The position numbers and the translations under genes are program-made. Positions 35,751 to 36,203 of a stretch of DNA of 42,587 nucleotides are shown here, piece by piece. This DNA comes from a bacterium (lineage in GTDB: Bacteria; Vulcanimicrobiota; Xenobia; Xenobiales; JADMJV01), in NCBI GenBank assembly GCA_030149525.1, contig JASBRJ010000172.1, positions 1 through 42,587 on the forward strand, in the 5' to 3' direction. The notes beneath the pieces are model-generated. The model did no database searches. It was not told the DNA's origin and saw nothing but the letters and a program-made list of their open reading frames with translations. Numbering within the stretch: the stretch's first letter is position 1; every line of letters starts with the position of its first letter.

Positions 35751-36203
35751 TCAGGGCTTGCCGAAGATCTTCAGGGCCTGTTGAAACTGGTTCGTGAGAT
35801 CCGTTCCACCGATAATACCCGCTGTTCGATTTGTGTCGATACGGCCTCCGATATCCTTGCCGTTTAGATCATGGATGCGAAGCACGGGGTAGCTTCCGTA
35901 ATTTTCTCCGAACCGCTTGGTGGTCTTGAGGTCGCTTAAGGTATCGATAAAGACGGGAACAAACTGGGCCGACATTTTGACCACACGACTGTCGCGCAAC
36001 GGACCGTTGGCGAAGGCTTGGCAACCCGCTCAGCCGGGGTTCTCTCCGAAATGAAGCCACAGCGGCTTATTTTCTTTTTTGGCCACTTTCATAGCCTCAT
36101 CGTAGTCGGTATACCAGGTGACCCGGCCGATCTCAACAGTGGGCTGAGCCCAGCCTAAGCCGGTGAGGGCCATCCAGCAAAGAAGGAGCTTGAGTGACCT
36201 CAA
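35751..36203 (-). CDS. Exported thioredoxin-like selenoprotein (UxxC), TGA read as selenocysteine
   Basis: 150 residues if the in-frame TGA at 36032-36030 is read through. The N-terminus is a signal peptide (MRSLKLLLCWMALTGLGW, cleaved near WAQ), starting at TTG 36203, which has GGGAG 9 bases upstream and overlaps the MFS stop. Then EIGRVTWYTDYDEAMKVAKK and KPLWLHFGENPG, the TGA (position 58), and AGC (Cys61) QAFANGPLRDSRVVKMSAQF; VPVFIDT and SYPVLRIHDLNG follow, the usual thioredoxin strands. The TGA falls exactly where the first Cys of the CxxC active site should be, giving UAGC, and a hairpin fitting the bacterial SECIS rule lies downstream. A standard gene caller would keep only the fragment 35751-35999. 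It is periplasmic and probably a redox enzyme. The alternative is a pseudogene with a nonsense mutation, which is less likely given the position. Confidence 0.8.
35995..36012 (-). other. Candidate bacterial SECIS hairpin
   Basis: In the mRNA, counting from the base after UGA, positions 18-25 (CGCCAACG) pair with 29-35 (CGUUGCG), with C20 bulged. This leaves a three-base loop G-U-C at 26-28 closed by G-C, so the apex reads GGUCC. Published rules for bacterial SECIS elements ask for a small apical loop with a G in its first two positions, 16-37 bases after UGA; this fits. E. coli fdhF has GGUCU at its apex. The folding was done by eye. Confidence 0.6.

Follow-up and report, generated by a model that had tools for sequence, protein, structure and literature searches.

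The closest named family to the protein described here is VPGUxxT, types 1 and 2 (NF041382 and NF041383; hypothetical protein OS_HP5), which is included in a 2026 catalogue of prokaryotic selenoproteins and is given one selenocysteine (Sec) in the parts of that catalogue examined. Other points of comparison are Thioredoxin_7 (PF13899), a generic domain; the thiol:disulfide interchange selenoprotein (PF13098), with UxxC in a thioredoxin fold; and DsbH/DUF255 (PF03190; PDB 3ira and 2ju5), which are Cys proteins. For the RNA signal, a published bacterial SECIS model (PMC13188914) describes a stem of 4–16 bp and a loop of 3–9 nt lying 16–37 nt from the UGA, with an MFE of −7.5 or below and a G within the first two bases of the loop.

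We analysed a stretch of 42,587 nt (the window), which carries on its minus strand a predicted selenoprotein coding sequence of 150 amino acids (35751..36203). Like VPGUxxT proteins, the predicted protein has a signal-like N terminus and carries Sec after PG at the equivalent site of a Thioredoxin_7 domain; the two domains are homologous (E about 1e-20 to 1e-22). However, it scored 76.8 bits against a cut-off of 275 for type 2 and 74.1 against 350 for type 1, its motif is NPGUxxC and not VPGU, and it matches only positions 1–109 of the 287 in the type 2 model. It also lacks the C-terminal MsrA-like domain, there being no MsrA-like site in frame, and it belongs to a separate clade in which no Cys version was found. 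We tested score, motif and second domain; each differed, and on these grounds we place the protein outside VPGUxxT as defined. It is distinguished from the generic Thioredoxin_7 domain by a predicted Sec in place of the active-site Cys. Against PF13098, with which it has UxxC in common, it reached 15.1 bits, below the gathering threshold of 27. To DsbH/DUF255 it showed a weak sequence match, below Pfam and NCBIfam cut-offs, and a fold match around the active site.

The gene begins with a TTG codon, which overlaps the TGA stop of an upstream MFS gene by two bases, and ends at a TGA (35753-35751); its translation is MRSLKLLLCWMALTGLGWAQPTVEIGRVTWYTDYDEAMKVAKKENKPLWLHFGENPGUAGCQAFANGPLRDSRVVKMSAQFVPVFIDTLSDLKTTKRFGENYGSYPVLRIHDLNGKDIGGRIDTNRTAGIIGGTDLTNQFQQALKIFGKP. 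An earlier note, made from the sequence alone, had described this frame as open except for one TGA, and our re-reading of 36203-35751 found the same: the single internal stop is a TGA at 36030..36032 (minus strand), which corresponds to residue 58 of 150 and to the U of the UxxC motif (N-P-G-U-A-G-C). As that note had proposed, the codon aligned with the first Cys of CxxC in Thioredoxin_7/DUF255 proteins. The putative resolving Cys of the motif, residue 61 (TGC, 36021..36023, minus strand), is invariant in a family of nine members. Truncation by gene callers, also foreseen, was evident from table-11 ORF calling, which returned only an 82-amino-acid fragment after the TGA (35751-35999). The gene and its genome together show the sequence hallmarks of bacterial selenoproteins: the UGA falls on a conserved redox site, homologues have Cys there, the sel machinery is present and a bacterial SECIS is predicted. 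We consider it very likely that the in-frame TGA is a Sec codon in an exported thioredoxin-fold selenoprotein.

The Thioredoxin_7 domain spans 35784..36119 (minus strand) and includes the cis-Pro loop GSYPVLR. The window protein matched PF13899 with an E-value of 3.9e-10 and 40.7 bits (gathering threshold 27), and the domain was matched by all nine family members. An AlphaFold2 model built from a three-row alignment, with residue 58 modelled as Cys, had a pLDDT of 80.5 and a thioredoxin-like fold in which helix 59-66 begins next to residue 58 and strand 107-111 follows Pro106 of GSYP. Foldseek matched this model to AGR2, 3f9u, 3ira, DsbH and DsbD C-terminal domains with TM scores of about 0.5–0.6. 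A probable Sec-pathway signal peptide, MRSLKLLLCWMALTGLGWA (36147..36203, minus strand), was identified by eye and from homologue N termini, several of which are lipobox-like or signal-like; N-terminal extensions of two homologues matched no Pfam family. The window protein is thus probably exported, and the thioredoxin-like domain of the earlier note is borne out by the domain match and predicted fold, with the signal peptide remaining a probable assignment.

In the mechanism that we propose, a redox-active selenenylsulfide would link Sec58 to Cys61 at the N-terminal end of helix α1. A membrane electron carrier of the DsbD/CcdA type would keep the UxxC motif reduced; the genome has one DsbD_TM gene, whose product may be the reductant. 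The acceptors of the electrons would be either oxidised proteins of the periplasm or a reductase, for instance methionine sulfoxide reductase. A general periplasmic disulfide-reductase role appears to be the most likely, and we hold it with roughly even confidence. Somewhat less probable is that this true selenoprotein serves a dedicated enzyme partner (a peroxidase or methionine sulfoxide reductase) or acts as a metal- or metalloid-handling thiol. The sister family fuses its domain to an MsrA-like domain, which makes methionine sulfoxide reduction one concrete candidate for the process that receives the electrons, and an ArsR-type regulator adjoins the gene; against a dedicated role, the homologues inspected have no conserved operon partner, and arsR probably has its own promoter. 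More tentatively still, the protein could belong to a distinct clade of exported thioredoxins, shared by a large-genome phylum and by Planctomycetota, that depends strictly on Sec and, as a stand-alone protein, supplies electrons to an enzyme of periplasmic repair, such as the MsrA-like domain fused in its sister family. The need for Sec in the periplasm becomes testable with a compact exported Sec thioredoxin for which no Cys counterpart has so far been found.

The gene neighbourhood consists of the MFS transporter upstream and, downstream, the ArsR regulator (HTH_5) and a Tll0287-like heme protein, followed by a convergent DUF4395-rhodanese gene and then an RND pump. A sigma-70 promoter matching the consensus at 12 of 12 positions (TTGACA-18-TATAAT; 35726-35697, minus strand) lies between the selenoprotein gene and arsR. 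It sits among AT-rich repeats and is possibly an autoregulated ArsR promoter. This perfect promoter suggests that arsR is probably on its own transcript. When ORFs were read by eye at the homologous loci inspected, none of the window's neighbour genes was recognised. A conserved MFS–thioredoxin gene pair was considered and rejected, as MFS homologues (same family, 37–42% identical) lie elsewhere; the next frame downstream of three of them, read from sequence, is trehalase-like. With a promoter before arsR and the neighbours absent at the inspected homologues, the neighbourhood says little about function. The ArsR/rhodanese/heme-protein cluster that the earlier note had offered as functional context therefore did not hold up as a set of conserved partners.

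We identified eight homologues that are 46–61% identical to the window protein, using queries that included a few extra N-terminal residues from the upstream frame, which left the results unaffected. They comprise two from Planctomycetota metagenome-assembled genomes (59% and 55% identical), two from the class to which the window belongs (53% and 54%) and four in further genomes of the Planctomycetota sample that holds both of those assemblies. The family's spread is patchy: 3 of the 149 genomes from the window's phylum have a member, as do 6 of the 392 Planctomycetota sampled. All nine members, from two phyla, have TGA at the Sec site and an N/H/D-PGU motif, and no Cys version was found within the clade. 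In a quick-search tree they formed one clade on a long branch (SH-aLRT 96), apart from the VPGU/VPGC/IPGC relatives. Among 23 more distant relatives, the codon is TGA in 16 (VPGU) and TGT or TGC in the other seven (VPGC/IPGC), which supply Cys homologues at the Sec position. A varied set of stop mutations among relatives would count against Sec; neither TAA nor TAG occurred at this codon in the relatives compared, the stop there always being TGA. By sequence comparison, the window protein is one of at least nine predicted members of a small NPGUxxC subfamily beside VPGUxxT. The earlier proposal of an exported Sec thioredoxin thus stands as a selenoprotein reading, although the protein is not an isolated case. 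Our literature search found no paper describing this subfamily, and the table parts of the 2026 catalogue that were examined contain no NPGUxxC family. The subfamily, missed by gene callers and outside current NCBIfam models, is a well-supported addition to the bacterial selenoproteins catalogued so far and has its own predicted SECIS.

Amino-acid identity is 0.59 upstream of the TGA and 0.67–0.68 downstream, and most mismatches fall at third codon positions on both sides. This pattern, which agrees with the coherence that the earlier note had seen across the codon, indicates that purifying selection acts on both sides of the TGA; together with the shared TGA in nine of nine members, it places the codon beyond chance. 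The window comes from a draft assembly, and the in-frame TGA could mark a pseudogene in which a nonsense mutation has struck the active-site Cys codon of a thioredoxin, but we regard this as very improbable given that diverged homologues have the identical TGA, selection persists downstream of it, and the genome holds Sec machinery and the gene a covarying SECIS. A sequencing or assembly error at a TGC or TGT codon, conceivable for a window known from a single draft genome, is more improbable still, as the same TGA recurs in nine separate assemblies, in one of them on a 591-kb contig.

All four components of the Sec machinery were found in the same genome. Contig C390 carries selB, selA and selD side by side (329 bits against a cut-off of 242, 489 bits and 342 bits, respectively), and C119 carries a tRNA-Sec with anticodon UCA (TCA in DNA; 73 bits). 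The assembly is a draft of 398 contigs with 4.5% contamination, and the window is linked to the sel genes only by binning, by similar GC (0.554 and 0.548) and by tetranucleotide usage (correlation 0.69 between window and C390). SelB also scored above the cut-off in four homologue-holding genomes (G005, G017, G098 and G099) and likewise in the family members G001 and G003. SelB and tRNA-Sec(UCA) would decode the UGA at 36032-36030 as Sec. The selD gene has one in-frame TGA of its own (AGUASK), which could also fit a general reassignment of UGA, for example to Trp, but we regard such a reassignment as no more probable than a sequencing or assembly error, given that neighbouring genes terminate at TGA and have none internally, the residue aligns with Cys and not Trp, and the genome encodes tRNA-Sec(UCA). 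A second tRNA-Sec-like gene (C223:1600-1687) is more mispaired (53 bits against 73 on C119) and is possibly a decayed copy or a bin contaminant.

Directly 3′ of the UGA we predicted a bacterial SECIS hairpin (35992..36013, minus strand; core stem 36009-36005 with 36001-35997, apical loop GUC 36004-36002), which would guide Sec decoding. Each of the nine genes has a stem of five pairs that closes a GUC loop 25 nt after the UGA. Standard pairs occupied 45 of 45 cells, whereas 2,000 synonymous reshuffles averaged 26.7 and never exceeded 38; the covariation score of 0.472 was higher than in all 500 shuffles (0.186 ± 0.054). The rows in these tests are related and do not represent fully independent lineages. 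Two stem pairs were changed on both sides among the nine genes, and slid registers of the stem were just 24–53% paired. The loop codons are GGT-CCG in every member, with GGT making up only 11–35% of Gly codons at these loci; local codon usage gives a joint chance of about 7e-11 for this invariance, assuming independent rows, although the rows are related. With its 3-nt GUC loop, 5 bp, 25-nt spacing and −14.6 kcal/mol, the window hairpin lies within every constraint of the published model (PMC13188914); the outcome of the SECIS check called for in the earlier note is positive. Its single-sequence stability is ordinary (z = −0.48), and a free hairpin search, sequence by sequence, did not separate members from shuffles, so the support for the hairpin is comparative. 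The same register was rejected for VPGU relatives (38 of 80 cells, P = 0.11), and the Cys relatives had no pairing excess in it (21 of 35 cells, P = 0.20).

We also observed further candidate selenoproteins. Eight Planctomycetota VPGUxxC relatives are apparent double selenoproteins: besides the TGA of the thioredoxin site, their frames contain another TGA in place of the catalytic Cys codon of a fused MsrA-like domain (partial PF01625 match), within the motif GM[STA]U[FY]W or AMFUFW. Other relatives have U/C (three) or C/C (six) at these two sites, and C/U was never seen. The double selenoproteins suggest a methionine repair system that relies on Sec. Within the window's own genome, a signal-peptide-bearing thioredoxin-like frame (C270:29170-30040) has one in-frame TGA (CHGISGIWUPGKQ) and no NCBIfam match. 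Finally, seven sequences of one family (f12) in the same phylum have TGA at the active site of a thioredoxin-like domain (FNPGUGGCQALDTVTYP) followed by a TPR-like part, and appear to form a further, apparently unnamed selenoprotein group.
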